Source: Aeromonas eucrenophila
GTDB taxonomy: Bacteria > Pseudomonadota > Gammaproteobacteria > Enterobacterales > Aeromonadaceae
DNA: 64,000 bases
Direction: 5' to 3'
Assembly (NCBI RefSeq): GCF_000819865.1
Contig: NZ_CDDF01000011.1
Location: 178,566 to 242,565, forward strand
Part shown: positions 3,579-49,694 of the stretch, piece by piece
How positions within the stretch are numbered: the stretch's first letter is position 1
How the letters are laid out: every line of letters begins with the position of its first letter
Notes under the pieces: model-generated
Told to the model about the DNA's origin: nothing
The model's input: the letters and a program-made list of their open reading frames with translations, nothing else
The model's database searches: none
Program-made: the position numbers and the translations under genes

Positions 3579-5291
3579 ATGGGAAAGTGGTTCAAAGTGC
3601 ACTCGGTCAGCAGCGCCATCGGCCGCTCCATGGTGCTCATCCTGTTCATGGCGAGCCTGATCGCCTTGGTGGCCATGGTCACCCTGTTCTATTCGGTACC
3701 CGACGCCAAGGCCATCAATCTGTCCGGCTCCCTGCGGATGCAGGCCTATCGCATGGCCTACGAGATAGAGAAAGATCAGGCAGTGCTCGGGCGGCTCGCC
3801 CAGTTCGAGCAGACCCTGCACGCCCATGAGTTGCAGGAGACCCAGCGCTGGATCACCCCTGCTTCCCTGCGCCGCACCTATGGCGAGGTGCTGCTGCAAT
3901 GGCAGGTGATGCGCGAGCACATCGAGAATGCGACGCCGAGGCGTTACACCGACAACACGGAGCAGTTTGTCGCCGCCATCGATGACTTCGTCAACCAGAT
4001 GCAGTATCACGTCGAGTTCAAGGTGCGCATGCTGGCCCTGGCGGAAGGGCTGGGCCTGCTCTCCATCATCACCATCGCCTGGTTCACGGTGCGTTTCACT
4101 CGCCAGCAAGTGGTCGCCCCGCTCAATCAGCTGGTCTATTGTGCCCGCCAGATCCAGCGTCAGGAGTTCGATCTAACCCTCCCCCCCCACTGTGACAACG
4201 AGCTGGGGGAGCTGTCGGGCGCCTTTGCCACCATGGCGGATGAACTCGGCAAGCTCTACCGGGAGCTCGGTAGCAAGGTCGAGGAGAAGACGGCCAAGCT
4301 GCAACAGGCCAACGACACCCTCTCCTTCCTCTATTCCACCGCTCAGAAGTTGCATGCGGCGCCGCTGAGTCGACGCACTCTGCAAAAGCTGCTGGAGCGG
4401 GCCGCCGCCCATCAACACATCGATTACATCCGGCTGACCCGCTTCGAACACAACGCCATGCCGGTCTATATCACGGGACGAAAGGGCTGGCCCGGCGATC
4501 TGGATACCCTGGTGAGCTTCTATCTGCAGATGGACGATCAGGAGTACGGACGGCTCGACATGATAAGCAGCCACCCCATCGACGAGCGGTTGATGAAGAA
4601 CTTCTCCATGCTGCTGGCCCAGGTGCTGCACAAGGATCAGACCCTGCTACAACATCAGCGTCTGCTCTTGATGGAAGAGCGAGCCGTCATCGCCCGCGAG
4701 CTGCACGACTCCCTGGCCCAGGCGCTCTCCTACCTCAAGATCCAGTCCACCCTGCTCAAGCGCTCCGTCGCCAAGGGCGATCATGGCAAGGCCGAGGCAG
4801 CCATGCAGCAGATCGATGAGGGACTCAGCAACGCTTACACCCAATTGCGCGAGCTGCTCGGCACCTTCCGCCTCAGCATAGGGGACGCCAATCTCGGGGA
4901 AGCCATCGCCGTCATGCTGGAGCAGCTCAAACCCCAGACCGGTGCCGAGATAAGGCTCCAATACGGTCTTTCCGATACCGACCTCGAGGCCGGACAGCAC
5001 ATCCATATCCTGCAGCTGATCCGTGAGGCAGTGCTCAATGCCATCAAACATGCGGGCGCACAGCTGATTGAGGTTAGCTGTGAGACCCTCGCTGATGGTA
5101 ACATCCAGGTTCAGATTTCAGATGATGGTGTCGGAATTGGGAGCGCGAGCTCCGCGGTCAATCACTACGGTCTTAGCATCATGAACGAGCGCTCCAGCAA
5201 GTTGCACGGTCAGTTGACCATCAGTGAGCTGCCGTCCGGAGGCACCCGTGTACACCTGACCTTTCCCACCAGCCTAACAAGAGACGCCTGA
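3579..5291 (+). CDS. narQ: NarQ, nitrate/nitrite sensor histidine kinase
   Basis: NarQ senses periplasmic nitrate and nitrite and phosphorylates NarP. The 570-residue protein has TM1 at about residues 15-38, the ligand-binding P-box (NLSGSLRMQAYRM), a periplasmic helical domain, TM2 at about 148-168, a HAMP linker, a central module, the HisKA_3 box (ARELHDSLAQALSYLK) and an HATPase domain (REAVLNAIKHAG). The cysteine cluster typical of NarX is absent, which favours NarQ. The ATG at 3579 follows CGAGGGAAT. narP overlaps its stop by one base. Its promoter must lie in the same short interval as the moaA leader. Confidence 0.93.
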   Translation: MGKWFKVHSVSSAIGRSMVLILFMASLIALVAMVTLFYSVPDAKAINLSGSLRMQAYRMAYEIEKDQAVLGRLAQFEQTLHAHELQETQRWITPASLRRTYGEVLLQWQVMREHIENATPRRYTDNTEQFVAAIDDFVNQMQYHVEFKVRMLALAEGLGLLSIITIAWFTVRFTRQQVVAPLNQLVYCARQIQRQEFDLTLPPHCDNELGELSGAFATMADELGKLYRELGSKVEEKTAKLQQANDTLSFLYSTAQKLHAAPLSRRTLQKLLERAAAHQHIDYIRLTRFEHNAMPVYITGRKGWPGDLDTLVSFYLQMDDQEYGRLDMISSHPIDERLMKNFSMLLAQVLHKDQTLLQHQRLLLMEERAVIARELHDSLAQALSYLKIQSTLLKRSVAKGDHGKAEAAMQQIDEGLSNAYTQLRELLGTFRLSIGDANLGEAIAVMLEQLKPQTGAEIRLQYGLSDTDLEAGQHIHILQLIREAVLNAIKHAGAQLIEVSCETLADGNIQVQISDDGVGIGSASSAVNHYGLSIMNERSSKLHGQLTISELPSGGTRVHLTFPTSLTRDA

Positions 5292-5929
5292 TGGACGAGA
5301 TGAAATATAGTGTTCTGGTCGTGGATGACCATCCCCTCATGCGCAAAGGGATTGTGCAACTGCTGGAGTTGGAAGATAACCTCGAGGTGATAGGTGAAGC
5401 TTCCAACGGGACTGATGCCGTGGCCATGGCCAAGGAGTCCGAACCGGATCTTATTCTGCTCGATCTCAACATGAAGGGCCTGTCCGGTCTCGATACCCTC
5501 AAGGCACTGCGGGCCGAGGAAGTCACCTCCCGGGTGGTGATCCTGACCGTCTCCGATGCCCGTCAGGATGTGGTTGCCCTGCTCAAGGCCGGCGCCGATG
5601 GTTACCTGCTCAAAGATACCGAGCCGGATATGCTGCTGGGCCAGCTGGCCGATGTCATGACCGGCAAGCAGATCCTGAGCGAGCCGCTGCGCCCCTACCT
5701 GGAAAACATCTACGAGCTGGATCACCTGCAGCAGAAGCTCGAGAGCCTGACCCGACGCGAGATGCAGATCCTGCGCGAGATCGCCAAGGGTCTCTCCAAC
5801 AAGCAGGTCGCCTCCGTGCTGCATATCTCCGAAGGGACCGTCAAGGTTCACGTCAAGAGCCTGCTCAAGAAGCTCGAGGCCCAGAGCCGGGTAGAAGCCG
5901 CCGTCATGTATCTGGAGCAGCGCAACTAA
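5291..5929 (+). CDS. narP: NarP, nitrate/nitrite response regulator
   Basis: This 212-residue LuxR/NarL-family regulator has a receiver domain (VVDDHPLMRKG; phospho-acceptor Asp58 in LLDLN; Lys of YLLKD) and a C-terminal helix-turn-helix (LTRREMQILREIAKGLSNKQVA ... EGTVKVHV). NarP binds paired heptamers arranged 7-2-7 and activates nap-type genes. The start overlaps the narQ stop (TGATG), so the two are co-translated. Candidate targets in this window are the sites upstream of napF. Confidence 0.94.
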   Translation: MDEMKYSVLVVDDHPLMRKGIVQLLELEDNLEVIGEASNGTDAVAMAKESEPDLILLDLNMKGLSGLDTLKALRAEEVTSRVVILTVSDARQDVVALLKAGADGYLLKDTEPDMLLGQLADVMTGKQILSEPLRPYLENIYELDHLQQKLESLTRREMQILREIAKGLSNKQVASVLHISEGTVKVHVKSLLKKLEAQSRVEAAVMYLEQRN

Positions 5930-5972
5930 GCGCCCCCTACATAGCTCAGCAGGCGGCATCCTTGCCCACATC

Positions 5973-5995
5973 AGGCCCCGTCACCTCGGGGCCTT
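5973..5995 (+). terminator. Terminator after narP
   Basis: GGCCCCG-TCAC-CTCGGGGCC followed by TTT forms a compact G/C hairpin 45 bases after the narP stop. The U-tract is short. Confidence 0.65.
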
Positions 5996-6129
5996 TGCTG
6001 GCTGCGGCACCAAAACCTCTCCCTCCGATGAGCCCGATACCGGGGCACATGAAATAATCTCACCTCGCCACACCTTATTGAGTTATTGCATTATTATGTT
6101 CATGCGACCACAGATGGAGGACGGGCGAC

Positions 6130-6555
6130 ATGACTACCGCACAGATCGAACTGGTACAGAAGGCATGGGGCAAGGTCACGGCGTTGAATCACACCTACGT
6201 GCTGGAGGTGTATGAGGAGCTGTTCCGACTGTCGCCGGAATTGATCAACCTCTTTCCCGATCCTTCGGGAATGCCGATCGCCAAGGTATCGGAGACGCTG
6301 AACACGGTGATCACCAGCCTGGAGCAGCTGGATGCCCTGGGTTTCATCATCAGGGATCTCGGTCGCAGGCATCAAAAGTTCAACGTGGAGCCACACCAGT
6401 TCGCGCTGCTGAAGCAGGCACTGACGACGGTACTGGCACGGCGCTTGGGAGAGAGCTTCAAACCCGAACTGGCCGACGCCTGGTCACAAATGTATGACGA
6501 GATCTCCGCCTTGATGTTGGAAGGACTCAATCATCGCACCACATCACTGGTCTGA
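6130..6555 (+). CDS. Single-domain bacterial globin
   Basis: A 141-residue haem protein of the flavohaemoglobin-like single-domain globin group. LFPDPSG contains the expected CD1 phenylalanine (Phe42). The proximal histidine is most likely His81 in DLGRRHQKFNV, followed by a typical GH helix region. Such globins bind oxygen or nitric oxide and often take part in NO detoxification with a reductase; no reductase domain is present. The gene follows narQP but is separated by a terminator, so it probably has its own promoter. A GGAGGACGG ribosome site precedes the ATG. An NO-related role is inference from context. Confidence 0.85.
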   Translation: MTTAQIELVQKAWGKVTALNHTYVLEVYEELFRLSPELINLFPDPSGMPIAKVSETLNTVITSLEQLDALGFIIRDLGRRHQKFNVEPHQFALLKQALTTVLARRLGESFKPELADAWSQMYDEISALMLEGLNHRTTSLV

Positions 6556-6874
6556 ACTGCCATGACCATGGCCTCGGATGGTTCTTTTCCTCATCGGGTA
6601 GATAACGACAGACGGGCATTTTGCAGGGAGCGTGTTTGCAATATGCAAATGATGCCCCATTCTGCAGACGGGGCATGTTCGAGCCCCTTAAAACTCATCC
6701 GTATCCCATCAGAGTTCATCGTGAAGCCAATAATCATTACTTCCATAACCAACTGATTTTAAATACAAATTAAAATAAACTCTCCCTCGACGGCCCCGAC
6801 GGGCCGTTTTCTTCACCCTCTGGCACAGTCACTGCATTGTCATATTCAGATGCGACTTATTCGGAGGATGGAAC
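6556..6874 (+). other. Intergenic region with nested palindromes, no gene
   Basis: No convincing coding sequence is seen. An imperfect inverted repeat pairs GGGCATTTTGCA (6614-6625) with TGCAAATGATGCCC (6644-6657). It overlaps ATGCCCC/GGGGCAT (6652-6658 and 6670-6676). The GCATTTTGCA core recurs after the next gene at 7464-7515. A terminator lies at 6790-6811. Confidence 0.6.
6790..6811 (+). terminator. Terminator before the LON-domain gene
   Basis: ACGGCCC-CGAC-GGGCCGT followed by TTTTC. It is a perfect 7-pair G/C stem and would isolate the LON-domain gene from the globin transcript. Confidence 0.75.
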
Positions 6875-7450
6875 ATGAAACTTCAACCCTTGGCACTGTT
6901 CCCCTTACCCTCACACATACTGCCGGGCGGAAAACTCCCCCTGCGCCTGTTCGAACCGCGCCACCTGCAGATGCTCAAGGAGTCGTTCATCGATGATCGA
7001 GGCTTTGGCATCGTCATGGAGGAAACGACCAGCACGGGCGCTTGCGGGCGGATCCTGCCGGTGGGCACCCGGGTCAAGGTAACGGATTTTTATACCCTCA
7101 ACGATGGCCTGCTCGGGGTTACCGTACTGGGTCTGGAACGATTTTCCATTCATGAAATGGAGACTGACGAGACGGGTTTGCGTCACGCCCGAGTAGAAAC
7201 GCTGCCCAACTGGCCGAGTGCCCACTCGGATTTCAGTGACAAGCAACTGGTCAGCAGATTGAGGGAGGTGTTTGAGCAATATCCTGAACTGGATGAGCTC
7301 TATCCGGACAAGCAGTTTGACGACGCAGCCTGGCTCTGCCAGCGCTGGCTCGAGATCCTGCCCATGCCTATCTATGAAAAACAGATGTTGATTGCCAAAC
7401 AAAACAGTGAAGCGGCGCGCCAGTTTTTGCGCCGACTGATCGCACAGTGA
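6875..7450 (+). CDS. LON substrate-binding-domain protein
   Basis: The 191-residue protein is a stand-alone version of the N-terminal substrate-binding domain of Lon protease. It starts LALFPLPSHILPGGKLPLRLFEPRH, the hallmark LON opening, and has no ATPase or protease domain. Such proteins may bind unfolded or tagged substrates, but their role is not established. A good TCGGAGGATGG ribosome site precedes the ATG. It is monocistronic between a terminator and a convergent kinase gene. Confidence 0.85.
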   Translation: MKLQPLALFPLPSHILPGGKLPLRLFEPRHLQMLKESFIDDRGFGIVMEETTSTGACGRILPVGTRVKVTDFYTLNDGLLGVTVLGLERFSIHEMETDETGLRHARVETLPNWPSAHSDFSDKQLVSRLREVFEQYPELDELYPDKQFDDAAWLCQRWLEILPMPIYEKQMLIAKQNSEAARQFLRRLIAQ

Positions 7451-42023: not shown

Positions 42024-42722
42024 ATGCCCAGCTATCTGTGGTGGCCCCTGCTGGCCTGGCTGTTGCCCCTCATCGGTGCCCTCGGCAGCCGTACCCATCT
42101 CTGGCCCTGGTGGCTCGGCTTCGGGCTCTGCCTCGCCAGTGCGCTGATCGGCCTGGGTCTGTTGCTGCGCCTGCCCTGGAGCCAGCATCGCACCCCCAGC
42201 CTCTGGGGCGCCGTTCCCCTGCTGCTGCCCCTGCTGTTTGTGGTGCAGGCGCTGCGCTCGCCGCTCACCAACGACGTCAGCACGGATCCCTATCATCCTC
42301 CCCGCCTCCTGTGGGCAGAGCAGCTTAGATCGGCGCAGGATCTGCCCGTCAATGCCGGGCCCCTGTCCGCCTTTGCCGGCAACCCGGCCCCGCTCTATAC
42401 CCAGGCCTCCCCAGCCGAGGTCCTCGCCGAGGCGGATGAGTTGATGACGGAGCTGGGCTGGCAGGTGAGCGCGAGCCCGGACGGCCTCGATGCCGTGGTG
42501 ACCTCGGGCTGGTTCGGCTTTCAGGATGACGTGGCGCTGCGGGTCTTTGCCGGCCTCAAGGAGACCCGCGTCGACATGCGCTCCGCCTCCCGTCAGGGAC
42601 GCAGCGATCTGGGCGTCAACCGGGCACGGATTCAGGATTTTTTGATCCGCCTGAACGAGCGACTGGGAGGGGCCATCAAACCCAAGATGCAGACAGTCGA
42701 TGAGGATCTCCATGCGCGTTGA
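42024..42722 (+). CDS. DUF1499-domain membrane protein
   Basis: The 232-residue protein has about three N-terminal membrane segments in the first 80 residues and a C-terminal soluble DUF1499 domain (NDVSTDPYHPPRL, DAVVTSGWFGFQDDVALRV, VDMRSASRQGRSDLGVNRARI). The family has no known activity. Its 3' end overlaps the YnjA-like gene, making it the first gene of a seven-gene run to 49694. Confidence 0.85.
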   Translation: MPSYLWWPLLAWLLPLIGALGSRTHLWPWWLGFGLCLASALIGLGLLLRLPWSQHRTPSLWGAVPLLLPLLFVVQALRSPLTNDVSTDPYHPPRLLWAEQLRSAQDLPVNAGPLSAFAGNPAPLYTQASPAEVLAEADELMTELGWQVSASPDGLDAVVTSGWFGFQDDVALRVFAGLKETRVDMRSASRQGRSDLGVNRARIQDFLIRLNERLGGAIKPKMQTVDEDLHAR

Positions 42723-43305
42723 GGTAAAAGCTGACCGGGAATATGCCTGGTTTATCCGCCCCTTCTTCTGGCTGCAGAAGCGCAACTACGGCCAAGTGCT
42801 GATCCCGGGCAAGTGCTGGGGTCGCTCCCCACGGCTGTTCGCCGCCGTGGCCACCCTGTACGGGGTCATCAACCGCAGGCGATCCCCCATAGACCCCGTG
42901 CTGCGCTCCCTGGTCACTGTGCGTGTCTCCCAGCTCAACTGGTGCCGCTTCTGCGTCGACATCAACGCCATGACCTTGGTAAAGAGAGCCGGCTCAAGCG
43001 CCAAGGTGGAAGCCCTGGCCCAGTGGCGAGACAGCCCCCTGTTCGATGAGCGGGAGCGGGCCGTGCTCGATTACACCGAGGCCATGACCGGGCTGGACGG
43101 AGTGAGCGACGAGCAGGCGCTGCGCCTCAAACCCTGGTTTGACGACGACGGCCTGGTGGAGCTGACCGGCCTCATCGCCTTCCAGAACATGTCGGCCAAG
43201 TTCAACGCCGCCCTCGACATCGCGCCTCAGGGCTTCTGCCAGTTGCCGGTGCAGCCGGTGCGCCCCCCGTCGGGCGACGATCAGCACCAAGACAAGGCGC
43301 CCTGA
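42712..43305 (+). CDS. YnjA-like carboxymuconolactone decarboxylase-family protein
   Basis: The 197-residue protein of the AhpD/CMD superfamily has the SQLNWCRFCVDINA segment, whose CxxC is the AhpD-type redox pair. This suggests thiol peroxidase or disulfide chemistry rather than true decarboxylation. The start at 42712 follows GAGGATCTCC; an ATG 12 bases earlier is alternative. It overlaps the DUF1499 stop and, at its end, the next gene (TGATG). E. coli YnjA, from the ynjABCDEF cluster, is the same family. Confidence 0.82.
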   Translation: MRVEVKADREYAWFIRPFFWLQKRNYGQVLIPGKCWGRSPRLFAAVATLYGVINRRRSPIDPVLRSLVTVRVSQLNWCRFCVDINAMTLVKRAGSSAKVEALAQWRDSPLFDERERAVLDYTEAMTGLDGVSDEQALRLKPWFDDDGLVELTGLIAFQNMSAKFNAALDIAPQGFCQLPVQPVRPPSGDDQHQDKAP

Positions 43306-45461
43306 TGACGCGCACCCGCCTGCTGCTGTTGCTGGTGATGGGGGCCCTCATCGCCGCCTTCTTCGCCTTCGATCTCGGCCGCTATCTGAACCTCGGCGCG
43401 CTGCAGGCACGCCAGGCGCAGCTCTCCGTCTGGGTAGAGGGGAACTTCGCCCTGGCCGCCCTGCTGTTCCTGCTCGTCTACGTGCTCAGCACCGCCCTCT
43501 CCCTGCCCGGCGCCAGCCTGCTGACCCTGGGGGGCAGCGCCGTCTTTGGCGTCGGTTGGGGGTTGTTGCTGGTGTCGTTCGCCAGCTCCCTCGGGGCCAC
43601 CCTGGCCATGCTCAGCGCCCGCTTCCTGCTGCGGGACTTTCTGTTGCGAGAGGGGGTAAAAGCTCGCTTTGGCGACAAGCTGACCCAGTTCGAGCAGGGG
43701 ATGGCGAAGGATGGCGCCTTCTATCTGCTGAGCCTGCGCCTCATCCCGCTGTTCCCCTTCTTCCTGGTCAACCTGCTGATGGGGCTCACCCCCATACGCG
43801 TCGGCACCTACTACTGGGTGAGCCAGCTTGGCATGCTGCCCGGCACCTTCGTCTATGTGCTGGCGGGCAGCGAGCTCGCGACCCTCACCAGCACCGGCAA
43901 TATTCTCTCCCCCGGCCTGATGGTGGCGCTGACCCTGCTCGGGATCATGCCGCTGCTGATGAAGCAGCTGATGAAACGCTTGGCCCTGCGCCGCCTGCAT
44001 GCCCCTTATCGCAAACCCGAACGCTACGACTACAACTTGCTGGTGATAGGGGCCGGCGCCGGTGGCCTGGTGACCAGCTATATCGCCGCCGCGGTGAAGG
44101 CCAAAGTGGCGCTGATCGAGCAGCGCAGCATGGGGGGGGATTGCCTCAATACCGGCTGCGTCCCCTCCAAGGCGCTGATCCGCGCCGCCCGCTTCGCCGC
44201 CGAGCAGCGCCGCGCCGCCGAGCTGGGCTTCACCCCCAGCCAATCCCGTGCCGATTTCGCCGCCGTGATGGCGCGTATCGCCCTGGTGATCAAAGCCGTC
44301 GAGCCCCACGACTCCATCGAGCGTTATCAGGGGCTGGGGGTAGAGTGCATCCAGGGCGCCGCGCGGCTGATCTCCCCCTGGGAGGTCGAGGTCAATGGCC
44401 GGCGCCTGTCCAGCCGCCACATCGTCATCGCCACCGGCGCCAGGCCCAGAGTGCCGAGCCTGCCTGGATTGGCAGAGGTGCCCTACCTCACCTCGGACAG
44501 CCTCTGGCAACTGCGCGCGGCGCCACGCCGACTGCTGGTGCTCGGCGGCGGCCCCATGGGTTGCGAGCTGGCCCAGAGTTTCGCCCTGCTCGGCATCCCG
44601 GTCAGCCTGGTGGAGCTGGCCGATCGGCTGCTGCCGAGGGAGGAGCCGGAAGTAGCCGCACTGTTGCAGGCCCAGATGGAGGAAGACGGGGTGCAAGTGC
44701 TCACCGGCTGGCGGGTCGAACGGGTCGAGAGCGGGAACCTGGGCGAGATCCGCCTGCACCTGAGCAGAGACGCGGAGCGCATGATGATAGAGGGAGACCA
44801 GTTGCTGCTGGCCCTCGGCCGGGTCGCCAACGTGGGCGGCTTTGGCCTCGAAGAGCTGGGGGTGACCCTGGCAGCGGGCGGCACCCTGGCGGTCGATGGT
44901 TTCCTTGCCACCAACTACCCCAGCATACTGGCGGTGGGGGACGTGGCCGGTCCCTATCAATTCACCCACGTCGCCGCCCATCAGGGCTGGTACGCGGCGG
45001 TCAACGCCCTGTTCGCGCCCCTCAAGTGTTTTCGGGTGGACTACCGGGTGATCCCGACCGCCACCTACACCAGCCCGGAGATCGCCCGAGTGGGATTGAA
45101 CCAGGGCGAGGCCCGCGCCCGGGGCATCCCCTTCGAGGCGACCCGCTTCCCGCTGGCCGAACTCGATCGCGCCATCACGGATGGCGATCGGCAGGGGTTC
45201 GTCGAGGTGTTGACGGTGCCGGGCAAGGACAGGATCCTGGGTGCCACCATAGTGGGCACTCACGCCGGCGAGCGGCTCGCCGAGTTCGTGCTCGCCATGG
45301 GCCAGGGGCTGGGGCTGCGCAAGATCCTCGCCACCGTTCACGCTTATCCGACCCTGATGGAGGCCAACAAGCAGGTGGCCGGACGCTGGCAGCAGGCCCA
45401 TCAACCCCTGCGTCTGCTGCCCCTATTGGCCCGTTATCACGCCTGGCGCCGCGGTGCCTGA
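43305..45461 (+). CDS. VTT(TVP38/TMEM64)-FAD disulfide oxidoreductase fusion
   Basis: A 718-residue two-part protein. Residues 1-225 are a VTT/SNARE-associated (DedA-like) membrane domain with a hydrophobic start, LLTLGGSAVFGVGWG, and LRLIPLFPFFLVNLLMGLTPI. Residues 237-700 are a class I pyridine-nucleotide disulfide oxidoreductase with FAD loop LVIGAGAGGLVTSY, redox pair GGDCLNTGCVPSKALI, NAD(P) loop LVLGGGPMGCELAQ, FAD site ILAVGDVAG and C-terminal dimer domain with TVHAYPTLMEANK. In E. coli the VTT proteins YdjX/YdjZ precede ynjABCD. The fusion implies that flavin-driven thiol redox is coupled to the membrane domain (inference). Confidence 0.9.
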   Translation: MTRTRLLLLLVMGALIAAFFAFDLGRYLNLGALQARQAQLSVWVEGNFALAALLFLLVYVLSTALSLPGASLLTLGGSAVFGVGWGLLLVSFASSLGATLAMLSARFLLRDFLLREGVKARFGDKLTQFEQGMAKDGAFYLLSLRLIPLFPFFLVNLLMGLTPIRVGTYYWVSQLGMLPGTFVYVLAGSELATLTSTGNILSPGLMVALTLLGIMPLLMKQLMKRLALRRLHAPYRKPERYDYNLLVIGAGAGGLVTSYIAAAVKAKVALIEQRSMGGDCLNTGCVPSKALIRAARFAAEQRRAAELGFTPSQSRADFAAVMARIALVIKAVEPHDSIERYQGLGVECIQGAARLISPWEVEVNGRRLSSRHIVIATGARPRVPSLPGLAEVPYLTSDSLWQLRAAPRRLLVLGGGPMGCELAQSFALLGIPVSLVELADRLLPREEPEVAALLQAQMEEDGVQVLTGWRVERVESGNLGEIRLHLSRDAERMMIEGDQLLLALGRVANVGGFGLEELGVTLAAGGTLAVDGFLATNYPSILAVGDVAGPYQFTHVAAHQGWYAAVNALFAPLKCFRVDYRVIPTATYTSPEIARVGLNQGEARARGIPFEATRFPLAELDRAITDGDRQGFVEVLTVPGKDRILGATIVGTHAGERLAEFVLAMGQGLGLRKILATVHAYPTLMEANKQVAGRWQQAHQPLRLLPLLARYHAWRRGA

Positions 45462-45484
45462 TCCCTTTTGCAGAAGGTCATCCC

Positions 45485-46699
45485 ATGTTCAAGACCCGAT
45501 TTAGCACCTTGCTCCGCCCCTTGCACCGGGCCCTGCTGCTCGGCGTCCTCCCCCTGCTGATGGCGAGCCCGTTGCGGGCGAGCGAACAGCCGCTGGATGA
45601 GTCGCGCTGGCAGCAGACGCTCCAGGAGGCCCGTGGCCAGACCGTCTACTTCAACGCCTGGGGCGGCAGCCCGGAGATCAACAGCTATCTGGTCTGGGCC
45701 GGCCAGGAGATCGAGCGTCAGTACGGGGTCAAGCTGGTGCAGGTGAAGGTGGATGACATCGCCCAGAGCGTCAGCCAGCTGCTGGCCAACCAGCAGGCGG
45801 GCAAGACCGAAGGTGGTCCCATCGATCTGCTCTGGGTCAACGGCAAGAACTTCAAGGCGCTCAAGGAGCAGCACCTGCTGGGCACCCCCTTCAGCACCGA
45901 GCTGCCCAACATGGCGCTGGTGGACGAGACGCTGCCGGTGACGGAGGACTTCACCGTGCCGGTCGAGGGACTGGAAGCCCCCTGGGGCATAGGCCAGCTC
46001 AACCTCATGGTCAATGAGCAGGAGGTGGCGACCCCGCCGACCTCGGCCCAGGCCCTGCTGACATGGGCCCAAGCCCACCCCGGCCGTTTCACCTACCCCA
46101 AGCCGCCGCAATTCCACGGCTCCAGCTTCCTCAAGCAGATCCTGCTGGAGTTGACGCCCGATCCCGCGCCTCTCTATCGGGAGGCGACCGATGCCGACTT
46201 TGATCGCCTGAGTGCGCCTCTCTGGGCCTGGCTCGACGCGCTGCACCCCGTGCTCTGGCGCAAGGGCAAGCTGTTCCCCACAGGCGCAGCCGAGACTCGC
46301 CAGCTGCTGGACGACGGCGAGCTCGCCATGGCCATCAGCTTCAACCCCCAGGAGGCGCAGAGCGCGGTTCAGAACGGCACCCTGCCCCCCACCGTCAAGG
46401 CGGTAGCCATGGCGAAGGGCGCGCTGACCAACAGCCACTTCCTCGCCATTCCCTTCAATGCCAGCGCGAGGGCCGGCGCCAAGGTGGTGGCCAACTTCCT
46501 GCTGAGCCCGGACGCCCAGGCCCGCAAGGCGGACCCCGCCTTCTGGGGCGATCCCAGCGTGCTGGATCCCGCCAAGCTCGGCGTCAAGGCCATCTCCACC
46601 ACGGGGGCACCGGCACTGCGCTTCAAGGCGGTGGCTGAACCTCACCCCAGCTGGCAGCTGCGGCTGGAAGCGGCCTGGGCCCAGCGCTACGGCCACTGA
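45485..46699 (+). CDS. ynjB: YnjB-like ABC transporter substrate-binding protein
   Basis: The 404-residue periplasmic binding protein has a signal peptide (LLLGVLPLLMASPLRA) and the features VYFNAWGGSPEINSYLVWAGQEI, IDLLWVNGKNFKALK and SSFLKQILLEL. It resembles E. coli YnjB. The ligand is unknown. The ATG at 45485 follows AGAAGGTCATCCC. It lies 23 bases after the fusion gene and 17 before the permease gene. Confidence 0.88.
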   Translation: MFKTRFSTLLRPLHRALLLGVLPLLMASPLRASEQPLDESRWQQTLQEARGQTVYFNAWGGSPEINSYLVWAGQEIERQYGVKLVQVKVDDIAQSVSQLLANQQAGKTEGGPIDLLWVNGKNFKALKEQHLLGTPFSTELPNMALVDETLPVTEDFTVPVEGLEAPWGIGQLNLMVNEQEVATPPTSAQALLTWAQAHPGRFTYPKPPQFHGSSFLKQILLELTPDPAPLYREATDADFDRLSAPLWAWLDALHPVLWRKGKLFPTGAAETRQLLDDGELAMAISFNPQEAQSAVQNGTLPPTVKAVAMAKGALTNSHFLAIPFNASARAGAKVVANFLLSPDAQARKADPAFWGDPSVLDPAKLGVKAISTTGAPALRFKAVAEPHPSWQLRLEAAWAQRYGH

Positions 46700-46716
46700 T
46701 CCATGAACATCCGTCC

Positions 46717-48405
46717 ATGAACACCCAGGCCTGGCGCCTCCCCTTGCTCTGGCTGTGCGCCCTGCTGCTGGCTGCGCCGCTCGCCGTCGGCCTGCTGCTC
46801 CTGCTGGCCGACGGCGTGGCCCAAGACAACCTGCGCCTGTTGCTGGCCCAGCCCGGGCTCTGGCACTCCCTGGGCCTGAGCCTCTGGATAGCGAGCGCCT
46901 CTACCCTGGGGGCCCTGCTCTTTACCGCCCTGCTGCTCGCCCAGGGAGATGGCAGCCGCTGGATGGGGCTGCTGCTGCGCCTGCTCTCCCCGCTGCTGGC
47001 GCTGCCCCACGTGGCCTTTGCCATCGGCTTTGCCTTTTTGCTCGCCCCCTCCGGCTGGCTGTTGCGGCTGCTTTCCTCGCCGCTGGGCTTCGCCAGCGTC
47101 CCTCCCGACTGGCAGACCCTCAAGGACCCCGCCGGTCTAGGCCTCATCCTCGCACTCATCCTCAAAGAGACCCCCTTCCTGCTGCTGATGGCGCTCTCGG
47201 CCCTGGATCCGGCCAAGGTGGCGCGTCAGCAGTGGATAGGCGTGAGCATGGGCTTCAGCCTCCCCCAGATCTGGTGGCGCCTGCTGCTGCCCGCCCTCTG
47301 GCCAGCCCTGCGCCTGCCGCTCTACGCGGTGGCGGCCTATGGCATCGCCGTGGTGGATCTCGCCCAGTTGCTGGGGCCGGATGCGCCAGCCCCGCTGGCG
47401 GTGCGGCTCTGGCTCTGGTATCAGGACGCCGATCTGCACTGGCGCGGGGCCAGTGCCAGCGGCGCCCTGCTGCTGCTCGCCAGCGGTCTGTTGCTGCTCG
47501 CCGGTTTGCGGCTGCTGGAGTGGGGGCATCTTGGCCTTGGCCGGCGCCATTGGCTCGATGGCCGCCGCGCGGCCCCTGCTTGCCTGGCCCGGCGTCTGGT
47601 CGGGGGGGGCGCCATGGGGCTGCTCGCCATCAATCTGCTGGTGCTGGCCTCGCTGCTGCTCTGGTCCCTGACCCGCCGCTGGCCCTTCCCAGAGCTGTGG
47701 CCTAGCCAGTGGAGCGGCCACCACTGGCTGGTGCTGCTGCCTACCTTGAGTCCACTGCTATGGCAGAGCCTGTTGCTCGCCATCGCGAGCGCCGGTATTT
47801 CCCTGCTGCTGGTGGTGCTCAGCCTGGAGGCGCAACAAAATCGACGCCCCTGGCCACTCTGGCTCGTCTGCCTGCCGCTGCTGCTGCCCCAGGCCAGCCT
47901 GCTGTTCGGGCTGCGCTTGGGGGCGGACTGGCTCGGCGCCTGGTGGCAGGGCTCTTGGTTGCAAGGCTCTTGGTTGCAGGGAAGCGGCATCGGCTGGGGC
48001 TGGGTGCTCTGGAGCCAGCTGCTGTTCGTGGCCCCCTATGTCTACCTCTGCCTGCACGGCGCCTATCGCCAGTTCGACCCTCGTATCGTACAGGCGGCGC
48101 AACTGCTCGGGGCCAGCCCCTGGCGCGCCTGGTGGCGGGTGAAGGCCCCCCTGCTGGCGCGCCCCCTGCTGTTCGCCTTCGGGGTCGGCGCGGCGGTGAG
48201 TCTGGCCCAATACCTGCCGACCCTGCTGTTTGGCGCCGGCCGGGTCGTGACCATCACCACTGAGGCGGTGGCCATCGGCAGCGGCCTCAACCGGCGGCTG
48301 GCGGGGCTCTACGGCCTGCTGCAACTGCTGTTGCCGCTGTGCATCTACGCCCTGGCACTCTGGCTGCCGGCCCGCATCAACCCAGCCCTGAGGCACAACT
48401 CATGA
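46717..48405 (+). CDS. ynjC: YnjC-like ABC transporter permease
   Basis: The 562-residue protein is two fused permease halves, about 12 membrane segments in all. EAA-type loops are visible near VARQQWIGVSMGFSLPQIWWR and VQAAQLLGASPWRAWWRV. It would form the channel for YnjB ligands. A 15-base tandem repeat (47949-47978) encodes QGSWLQGSW in one loop. Confidence 0.9.
   Translation: MNTQAWRLPLLWLCALLLAAPLAVGLLLLLADGVAQDNLRLLLAQPGLWHSLGLSLWIASASTLGALLFTALLLAQGDGSRWMGLLLRLLSPLLALPHVAFAIGFAFLLAPSGWLLRLLSSPLGFASVPPDWQTLKDPAGLGLILALILKETPFLLLMALSALDPAKVARQQWIGVSMGFSLPQIWWRLLLPALWPALRLPLYAVAAYGIAVVDLAQLLGPDAPAPLAVRLWLWYQDADLHWRGASASGALLLLASGLLLLAGLRLLEWGHLGLGRRHWLDGRRAAPACLARRLVGGGAMGLLAINLLVLASLLLWSLTRRWPFPELWPSQWSGHHWLVLLPTLSPLLWQSLLLAIASAGISLLLVVLSLEAQQNRRPWPLWLVCLPLLLPQASLLFGLRLGADWLGAWWQGSWLQGSWLQGSGIGWGWVLWSQLLFVAPYVYLCLHGAYRQFDPRIVQAAQLLGASPWRAWWRVKAPLLARPLLFAFGVGAAVSLAQYLPTLLFGAGRVVTITTEAVAIGSGLNRRLAGLYGLLQLLLPLCIYALALWLPARINPALRHNS
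47949..47978 (+). repeat. Two 15-base tandem repeats within ynjC
   Basis: GGGCTCTTGGTTGCA and AGGCTCTTGGTTGCA lie in tandem and keep the reading frame, encoding a repeated GSWLQ. Confidence 0.85.
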
Positions 48406-48421
48406 CGGTGAAACCCTGACC

Positions 48422-49096
48422 ATGCTGCACAGCACCCCACTCATACTTCACCTCGCAGGCAGCCCCCTGCTCACCCTGCCTGCGCTCGAGGTGGCCCCCG
48501 GCGAGGTGCTGACCCTGATGGGACCAAGCGGCTGCGGCAAGAGCTCACTGCTGGCGGCAATGGCAGGCGTGCTGCCCGGCGCTTTGACGGGAAGAGGCCC
48601 CTTTCGGCTGGAGGGCGATCTCTGGCTGGGTGAGCGACTGCTCACCCCCCTGCCCCCCCAGCGGCGGCGGATCGGCATGCTGTTCCAAGAGGACTTGCTG
48701 TTTGCCCACCTGACGGTGGCCGAGAACCTGATGTTTGGCATGCCCGCCCGGCTCAAGGGGCAGGCCGCCAGGCGGGCCTGTGCCCTCGAGGCATTGGCGC
48801 AGGTGGCATTGATGGATCAGGCGGACAAGCTGCCCGGCCAGCTCTCCGGCGGCCAGAAGGCCCGCGTCAGCCTGCTGCGGGCCCTGCTGGCCGAGCCCGA
48901 GGCGCTGCTGCTGGATGAGCCTTTCTCCCGGCTGGACAAGCCGCTGCGGGCCGCATTCCGGACCCTGGTGTTCGCGCAGATCGCAGCGCGACAAATACCC
49001 GCCATCCTGGTGACCCACGACGAGGACGACGCGCCGGGCGCCATATTGACACTGACAACCCCCTGCTCTGACAAAGAGGAACCCGACCTTGTTTGA
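48422..49096 (+). CDS. ynjD: YnjD-like ABC transporter ATP-binding protein
   Basis: The 224-residue ATPase has Walker A (GPSGCGKSSLL), signature (LSGGQKARVSLLRALL), Walker B (ALLLDEPF) and the switch histidine (LVTHDEDD). It energises YnjBC import. It lies 16 bases after ynjC and overlaps the next gene by eight bases. Confidence 0.92.
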   Translation: MLHSTPLILHLAGSPLLTLPALEVAPGEVLTLMGPSGCGKSSLLAAMAGVLPGALTGRGPFRLEGDLWLGERLLTPLPPQRRRIGMLFQEDLLFAHLTVAENLMFGMPARLKGQAARRACALEALAQVALMDQADKLPGQLSGGQKARVSLLRALLAEPEALLLDEPFSRLDKPLRAAFRTLVFAQIAARQIPAILVTHDEDDAPGAILTLTTPCSDKEEPDLV

Positions 49097-49694
49097 CCGC
49101 CATCTTATCCCCCTGATCCGCCGCCCCCTCGCCGCCCTCGCCGCCCCCTTGTGCCGGGCCGGGTTGAGCGCCAACCAGATCAGCCTCACCGGCTTTGCCA
49201 TCGGCATGCTGGCACTGCCGCTGCTCGCCTTCGGCCTCTATCAGCCGGCGCTTGTCGCCATCCTGCTGAACCGGCTGCTGGACGGGCTGGACGGCGCCGT
49301 GGCGCGGCAGACGGCGATCACCGACTGCGGCGGCTTTCTCGACATCACCCTCGACTTCATCTTCTATGCCGCCGTGGTGCTGGGCTTCGCCCTGAGTGCC
49401 CCGGCCAACGCCCTGCCCGCCGCCACCCTGCTGTTTGCCTTCATGGGCACGGGCTCGAGCTTCCTGGCCTTCGCCATCATGGCGGGCAAGCGTGGCATCG
49501 AGAGCCCCGTCTATCGCCACAAATCGCTCTACTACCTGGGCGGGCTCACCGAGGGCAGCGAGACCATAGCCCTGTTCGTGCTGATGTGCCTCTGGCCCGC
49601 CGCCTTCGGGTGGCTTGCCTACGGCTTCGCCCTGCTCTGCCTCATCACCACCCTGACCCGACTCTGGAGTGGCTACCACAGCCTGCGGGACTAG
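49089..49694 (+). CDS. ynjF: YnjF-like CDP-alcohol phosphatidyltransferase-family protein
   Basis: The 201-residue membrane enzyme has the CDP-alcohol motif (LLDGLDGAVAR followed by CGGFLDITLD) with its metal-binding aspartates. It would transfer a phosphatidyl group from a CDP-activated lipid to an unknown alcohol. I use a TTG start at 49089 preceded by AGAGGAACC; it overlaps ynjD. YnjF is the matching E. coli protein at the end of its ynj cluster; the YnjE rhodanese is absent here. Confidence 0.87.
   Translation: MFDRHLIPLIRRPLAALAAPLCRAGLSANQISLTGFAIGMLALPLLAFGLYQPALVAILLNRLLDGLDGAVARQTAITDCGGFLDITLDFIFYAAVVLGFALSAPANALPAATLLFAFMGTGSSFLAFAIMAGKRGIESPVYRHKSLYYLGGLTEGSETIALFVLMCLWPAAFGWLAYGFALLCLITTLTRLWSGYHSLRD

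Follow-up and report, generated by a model that had tools for sequence, protein, structure and literature searches.

The ydjXYZ-ynjABCDEF region of Escherichia coli K-12 is largely without assigned function, judging by its RefSeq products. Among the DedA proteins of COG0398, the commonest domain fusion joins a VTT domain to a flavoprotein, and a lipid scramblase-type action has been proposed for the VTT proteins of this group (both in an extract of PMC10127716). Being already in print, the fusion is thus known. Here we analyse an operon of Aeromonas eucrenophila that is a variant form of the ynj cluster known from E. coli and carries this known kind of fusion. It lies in a window of 64,000 nucleotides (nt), by which we mean the whole stretch of DNA analysed: NZ_CDDF01000011.1, contig positions 178,566 to 242,565 of the forward strand (GCF_000819865.1). 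From phylogenetic profiles, together with the loss of the flavoprotein half in one Aeromonas genome, we conclude that the importer-transferase pair, YnjBCD with YnjF, is the core and that the redox fusion is a frequent, separable partner. The larger interest of the operon lies in this pair and in a neighbourhood of genes for copper-binding ribosomally synthesized and post-translationally modified peptides (RiPPs).

Seven co-directional reading frames occupy positions 42024-49694 on the + strand, listed here in 5' to 3' order. Identities to E. coli come from one-way BLASTP against K-12.

42024..42722, + strand: DUF1499 membrane protein, first of the run; 232 amino acids; PF07386, 74.7 bits
42700..43305, + strand: YnjA homologue with CMD/AhpD fold and CxxC; 201 amino acids; PF02627, 44.1 bits; 49% to E. 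coli YnjA
43305..45461, + strand: fusion of VTT (DedA/TVP38) and class I flavin adenine dinucleotide (FAD) disulfide reductase; 718 amino acids; residues 68-189 and 243-690
45485..46699, + strand: YnjB periplasmic solute-binding protein; 404 amino acids; SBP_bac_8, 69.3 bits; NF008633, 528.9 bits (cut-off 203); 49% to E. coli YnjB
46717..48405, + strand: YnjC double-length ATP-binding cassette (ABC) permease; 562 amino acids; BPD_transp_1 (PF00528), 31.1 bits; 46 and 35% to E. coli YnjC, in two pieces
48422..49096, + strand: YnjD ABC ATPase; 224 amino acids; ABC_tran (PF00005), 99.8 bits; 49% to E. coli YnjD
49089..49694, + strand: YnjF cytidine diphosphate (CDP)-alcohol phosphotransferase; 201 amino acids; CDP-OH_P_transf (PF01066), 36.7 bits; 61% to E. 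coli YnjF

Along the run the genes overlap by 23 nt and 1 nt, are then separated by 23, 17 and 16 nt, and finally overlap by 8 nt (the YnjB start at 45485 was taken from the sequence reading). From this spacing we infer that the seven genes form one transcript. All seven proteins exceed their Pfam family cut-offs. The seven packed genes and their family calls, first proposed from the sequence alone, are thus borne out by frames, spacings and Pfam scores. A PpiC isomerase gene lies 156 nt upstream of the run and mltB 59 nt downstream. Between 41500 and 50000 a promoter scan gave 0 sites (0.7 expected) and a terminator scan 6 (3.6 expected); all three + strand terminator sites are intragenic. 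The DUF1499 gene stands directly 5' of the CMD gene in all nine Aeromonas loci that extend that far (L196, L197, L199-L203, L212 and L213; L labels denote loci and G labels genomes).

The run holds a complete ABC importer set of binding protein, permease and ATPase. The motif of CDP-alcohol phosphotransferases, DxxDGxxAR...GxxxDxxxD, is intact in 45 of 45 YnjF relatives when a spacer of 7 to 9 is allowed. The best NCBIfam matches of YnjF, all below cut-off, are inositol-phosphate-type synthases. A literature search for ynjF gave no paper related by title.

To follow importer, transferase and fusion across genomes, we used an even set of 184 genomes of the class, which in GTDB also includes the former Betaproteobacteria. 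Thresholds were E up to 1e-30 for YnjB and up to 1e-15 for YnjF, with a stricter YnjF set at 1e-35 or better. YnjB occurs in 8 genomes and YnjF in 11, 8 of them in the stricter set. Seven genomes are common to both sets of eight (P=5e-11, the cut at 1e-35 having been chosen after the list was inspected). Measured against all 11 YnjF genomes, the association gives P=2e-9.

A fusion was counted when the VTT match reached at least 40% identity in an open frame of at least 600 codons. This leaves out G071 (no flavoprotein half seen), G052, G055 and G086 (short or interrupted frames), and long-frame VTT matches of lower identity (the second copy of G139, G077, G024, G143). The second half was checked in 49 of 53 fusion places; G085, G151, G076 and G173 were counted by frame length. 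On this definition the fusion is present in 54 of the 184 genomes (the window's and 53 others), and most of these fusions lie outside ynj operons.

Gene neighbourhoods give the same pairing. Eight YnjB proteins were used as queries in a single scan of named genomes. We took the best 80 of 546 confirmed loci, ranked by their match to a non-Aeromonas YnjB, so the sample is uneven. The gene caller overlooked genes, for example several YnjD, and we therefore counted neighbours by tblastn, calling a fusion when both halves lie within 200 nt on one strand. YnjF accompanies YnjB in 52 of the 80 loci, VTT in 37 (17 with a fused or abutting flavoprotein half), YnjE in 17 and CMD/YnjA in 16. Restricting the count to the 49 loci flanked by 8 kb or more on each side gives YnjF 39, VTT 30 (13 fused or abutting), CMD/YnjA 16 and YnjE 16. 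Many Enterobacteria have YdjX/YdjZ at their YnjB loci. The fusion itself stands directly upstream of YnjB in Enterovibrio (L186), Salinivibrio (L163) and Allopusillimonas (L117) and follows YnjF in several Burkholderiales. Its adjacency to YnjB thus recurs in Tolumonas, vibrios and Burkholderiales, in differing orientations. G074 has two distant YnjB paralogues (L090 and L091; 33-34% to the window's protein), accompanied by permease frames of single length and by DUF547; an MNIO gene lies near one of the two. These paralogues are perhaps a sister transporter family.

The fusion is a single open frame of 772 codons in the window. Its Pfam matches follow one another in that frame: VTT (PF09335, 80.6 bits), Pyr_redox_2 (PF07992, 192.2 bits) and Pyr_redox_dim (PF02852, 96.3 bits). 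Among the 37 genomes of the genus Aeromonas, 34 have the VTT match within a frame of more than 700 codons; a contig end cuts two, and one has lost the flavoprotein half. Hence the fusion is no assembly slip. The flavoprotein half has the hallmarks of class I FAD disulfide reductases, namely CxxxxC (C280-C285) and a C-terminal His-Glu pair (H679, E686). C280, C285, H679, Y681 and P682 are invariant in 15 of 15 aligned fusions, and E686 is kept in 14.

The CMD protein is equally constant within the genus (37 of 37 genomes), and its CxxC is kept in 18 of 18 aligned YnjA relatives. It passes the cut-off of the AhpD core domain, TIGR00778 (29.9 vs 27.8 bits). AhpD has its active-site histidine four residues past the second cysteine; at this place the window's protein has N and E. 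coli YnjA has T, so neither carries the residue of an AhpD peroxidase.

A survey of 75 genomes of the family shows how far the fusion and the importer travel together. In the window's genus VTT occurs in all 37 genomes and YnjB in 35 (one split over two contigs). In genus g169 (11 genomes) VTT and YnjB occur in the same nine and CMD in none; in genus g167 (23 genomes) VTT occurs in 17, YnjB and CMD in none. By coordinates, fusion and YnjB are divergent in all nine g169 genomes that have both, as they are in Tolumonas (L110, L112), and co-directional in Aeromonas. The neighbourhood has thus outlived rearrangement. The family also holds a natural deletion: one Aeromonas (G212; L196, 2563-8991, - strand) keeps CMD, VTT, YnjB, YnjC, YnjD and YnjF, and the flavoprotein half is gone. 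In another genome, G220, the fusion is split into two frames adjoining YnjF, with no YnjB match (L207, about 3840-6624). The same genome has a separate CMD-VTT-rhodanese-like cluster (L206, about 4065-6212).

Elsewhere, both halves of the operon adjoin bufferin genes. Bufferins hold periplasmic copper (extract of PMC12452194). In Burkholderiales the neighbours of YnjB include the MNIO maturase HvfB (NF003818, above cut-off), HvfC (PF09836 in one representative, a score above the NF050145 cut-off in another), an HvfX-related DoxX protein (50.5 bits, where the HvfX cut-off is 80) and a precursor of the DUF2282 (Buf1) type. At least one of HvfB, HvfC and HvfX is found in 14 of the 80 YnjB loci. 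In 11 of these 14, HvfX or HvfC is the called gene immediately before YnjB on the same strand, eight times at a spacing of at most 136 nt. The gaps in L151, from HvfB through HvfC and HvfX to YnjB, are -4, -4 and 31 nt. The run extends in L123 to YnjF and the fusion, and in L170 from a BufA precursor, HvfB and HvfC to YnjB through YnjF, the fusion and DUF3047. DUF3047 also follows the fusion in the Burkholderiales loci L128, L131-L135 and L149, directly except in L128 and L135, where DUF547 intervenes.

Bufferin genes also adjoin the fusion at loci that lack YnjBCD. L047 reads BufA-HvfB-HvfC-HvfX-fusion-sigma factor, and in L066 the fusion and the bufferin genes are convergent. Among the MNIO matches listed, 4 of the 53 fusion places have an MNIO gene within 10 kb, against 0.34 expected (P=4e-4, relatedness ignored; the MNIO of G091 was taken from L080). 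DUF547, which has no function in Pfam, lies within this distance of the fusion in 6 of 53 (L052, L055, L064, L068, L081, L095), against 0.16 expected (P=2e-8, relatedness again ignored). Non-fused VTT genes near MNIO or DUF547 (e.g., G112, G097, G126) were left uncounted. A further locus, L048 (G103, 4764-7395, - strand), also without YnjBCD, combines an 85-residue Cys-rich peptide, MNIO, a CxxC protein and the fusion. Its CxxC protein has a histidine four residues past the second cysteine, and L048 is possibly a Buf2-type operon with a peroxidase-like partner.

We found no prior report of this neighbourhood. According to PMC12452194, conserved genes of other kinds occur at bufferin operons in extremely low proportions, and its main text mentions none of TVP38, VTT, ABC transporter, DUF547, DUF3047 and YnjB. 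Neighbours named in an extract of PMC13097082 are DoxX, DUF2282 and regulators. In the main text of PMC12538549, the words transporter, oxidoreductase, TVP38 and DUF547 do not occur. A literature search, most of whose matches were covered, gave no paper joining bufferin or MNIO with VTT, TVP38 or ynjB.

To bring these observations together, we tentatively propose an importer-transferase pair for a membrane lipid with a thiol-redox arm, likely an envelope response to copper or thiol stress. YnjBCD is predicted to import a polar compound. As YnjF is bound to an ABC importer, this is most simply read as acceptor import: the compound would be the alcohol acceptor that YnjF joins to a membrane lipid. 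The VTT domain may then move the lipid product or a thiol partner. Electrons would pass from reduced nicotinamide adenine dinucleotide (NADH) to FAD, to C280-C285, to a disulfide and to the CxxC protein YnjA, and flavoprotein and YnjA would keep a thiol reduced. The stress would be copper or thiol oxidation. Because relatives adjoin genes for copper-binding peptides elsewhere, import of a compound for a membrane lipid seems likely, and a role in envelope copper or thiol stress can be proposed. The sequence-only reading had named import with envelope lipid modification or thiol redox; given the YnjB-YnjF pairing and VTT in 37 of 80 YnjB loci, that link is reasonable. In E. coli, ynjABCD was induced, perhaps indirectly, in an experiment on the envelope-stress regulator BaeR (extract of PMC2731931), which would fit envelope stress.

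Several results weigh against this proposal. The fusion tracks YnjB weakly: the overlap is 5 of 8 genomes where 2.35 are expected (P=0.05), rising to 6 (P=0.01) when G043, with VTT and flavoprotein as two adjoining genes, is added. No VTT gene is found in 19 of the 49 well-flanked YnjB loci. The VTT protein of the natural deletion, G212, has 236 residues, and other matches to the flavoprotein half in that genome reach at most 33% identity, so there is no replacement copy. Judged by their record titles, the 14 bufferin-linked YnjB loci all belong to Burkholderiales or betaproteobacterial metagenome-assembled genomes, and they may reflect one event. The window's own genome has neither a match to the MNIO enzyme (PF05114) nor a DUF547 gene. 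Hence copper is argued from relatives only, and the bufferin link concerns the gene family rather than this strain. In extracts of the respective papers, FNR, which signals anaerobic conditions, activates E. coli ydjXYZ-ynjABCD (PMC3688515), COG0398 is associated with aerobes (PMC10127716), and YdjX/YdjZ fail to substitute for YqjA/YghB, two DedA proteins, in a mutant defective in cell division (PMC3836016). FNR activation does not fit the aerobic bias of COG0398. Since YdjX/YdjZ fail to restore the mutant, they differ from the YqjA/YghB type. No FNR-like site with at most two mismatches lies between 41867 and 42024, so this stretch gives no support for control of the E. coli type in Aeromonas.

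Chief among the rivals is a pair of independent modules that share one promoter. YnjBCDF would make its own product or serve salvage, the VTT-flavoprotein with YnjA would be a general enzyme of envelope thiol or metal stress, and adjacency would reflect joint control. About as probable as our proposal, this explanation agrees with a fusion far wider than the importer (54 vs 8 of 184 genomes), with VTT and no YnjB in 17 of 23 g167 genomes, with YnjBCDF without a nearby VTT in G047, G170 and G054, and with the 19 loci lacking VTT. However, VTT in 30 of the 49 well-flanked loci, from Enterobacteria, vibrios, Tolumonas and Burkholderiales and in several gene orders, is more than joint control easily gives. 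The data separate the two explanations weakly. They also divide an earlier claim, that the genes are one co-inherited system: YnjB and YnjF are inherited together (7 of 8 each), whereas the fusion is not confined to them. Failure of co-inheritance in other genomes had been named beforehand as grounds for refutation, and it is partly seen, because the fusion is so much wider than YnjB, g167 has VTT without YnjB and one Aeromonas has lost the flavoprotein half. The redox arm is an accessory, missing from a good many ynjBCDF neighbourhoods and cut short in that genome.

Alternatively, the fusion could detoxify a metal or metalloid in the manner of MerT-MerA: VTT would admit a metal-thiol complex, which the flavoprotein fused to it would then reduce. 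Fold-search matches to the fusion model span residues 239-682, the flavoprotein half; mercuric reductases are among the solved chains closest to this half in sequence and in fold, and metals are suggested by the bufferin and sigma-factor genes beside relatives. Yet the C-terminal cysteine pair of MerA is absent (no Cys within the final 30 residues of 15 of 15 fusions), the score against NCBIfam MerA TIGR02053 is 353.9 bits, under the cut-off of 454.45, the H679-E686 pair of thiol-disulfide reductases is retained, and 9 of 15 VTT halves are free of cysteine. We consider this alternative unlikely. A literature search for TVP38 with mercuric reductase found no paper, and one for TVP38 with oxidoreductase and selenite found PMC10127716 alone. 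For a possible parallel with arsenosugar/radical-SAM gene contexts, a literature search gave no support.

An ordinary nutrient importer of thiamine or phosphonate type, with unrelated neighbours and a YnjF that makes a housekeeping lipid, is quite improbable. In one JGI record a relative of YnjB does bear the name putative thiamine transport protein, and the best NCBIfam scores of permease and ATPase are to 2-aminoethylphosphonate and thiamine families; all of them fall far under the cut-offs, however, and the YnjB-YnjF pairing with its bufferin and VTT context is unexpected for a vitamin importer. The binding protein favours no single ligand, which counts against our own proposal. The YnjB model has the solute-binding-protein fold (predicted local distance difference test score 90.6), and its fold search ties binders of polyamine, iron, sugar-phosphate, disaccharide, glycerophosphocholine and dinucleotide, while a sequence search of solved structures gave no match. 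Least probable of all is a thiol- or metal-binding phospholipid, in which an imported oxidised sulfur head group would be reduced by fusion and YnjA, attached to diacylglycerol by YnjF and flipped outward by VTT, there to hold copper beside bufferins.

The importer-transferase proposal leads to experiments. The YnjBCD-YnjF pairing across distant bacteria poses a testable question, whether the ligand that is taken up ends as the head group of a lipid. The bufferin neighbourhood makes copper the first stress to try. If correct, the proposal would also give a biochemical setting to the VTT-flavoprotein fusions, which 54 of the 184 genomes carry.

Compared with known systems, the run is closest to the E. 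coli ydjXYZ-ynjABCD(E)-ynjF region. The two have YnjA, YnjB, YnjC, YnjD and YnjF homologues in common, together with the YnjB-C-D order and VTT in the same cluster. Unlike the Aeromonas run, the E. coli region has two separate VTT proteins, YdjX and YdjZ (each about 35% identical to the VTT half alone), includes YdjY and YnjE, has ynjF on the opposite strand and lacks the flavoprotein. Among ten queries from the run, PpiC and MltB, none matched YdjY or YnjE at E 1e-3. The likeness to E. coli pointed out from the sequence alone thus extends to five homologues and not to YdjY and YnjE, and the K-12 region confirms that its VTT proteins are separate. The bufferin or 5-thiooxazole copper-RiPP operons (BufA, HvfB, HvfC, HvfX, sigma factor) form, elsewhere, one co-directional run with YnjBCDF, the fusion or both; they include the MNIO enzyme, unlike the window's genome. 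MerA and dihydrolipoamide dehydrogenase resemble the flavoprotein half in fold and in redox cysteines, but the fusion has an N-terminal membrane domain, lacks the C-terminal CC and scores below the equivalog cut-offs. The domain order is identical to that of COG0398/TVP38 fusions to PF07992-PF02852 (in RefSeq, bifunctional TVP38/TMEM64 family protein/FAD-dependent oxidoreductase). In our sample such fusions typically lie outside a ynj operon, whereas the Aeromonas fusion lies inside one.

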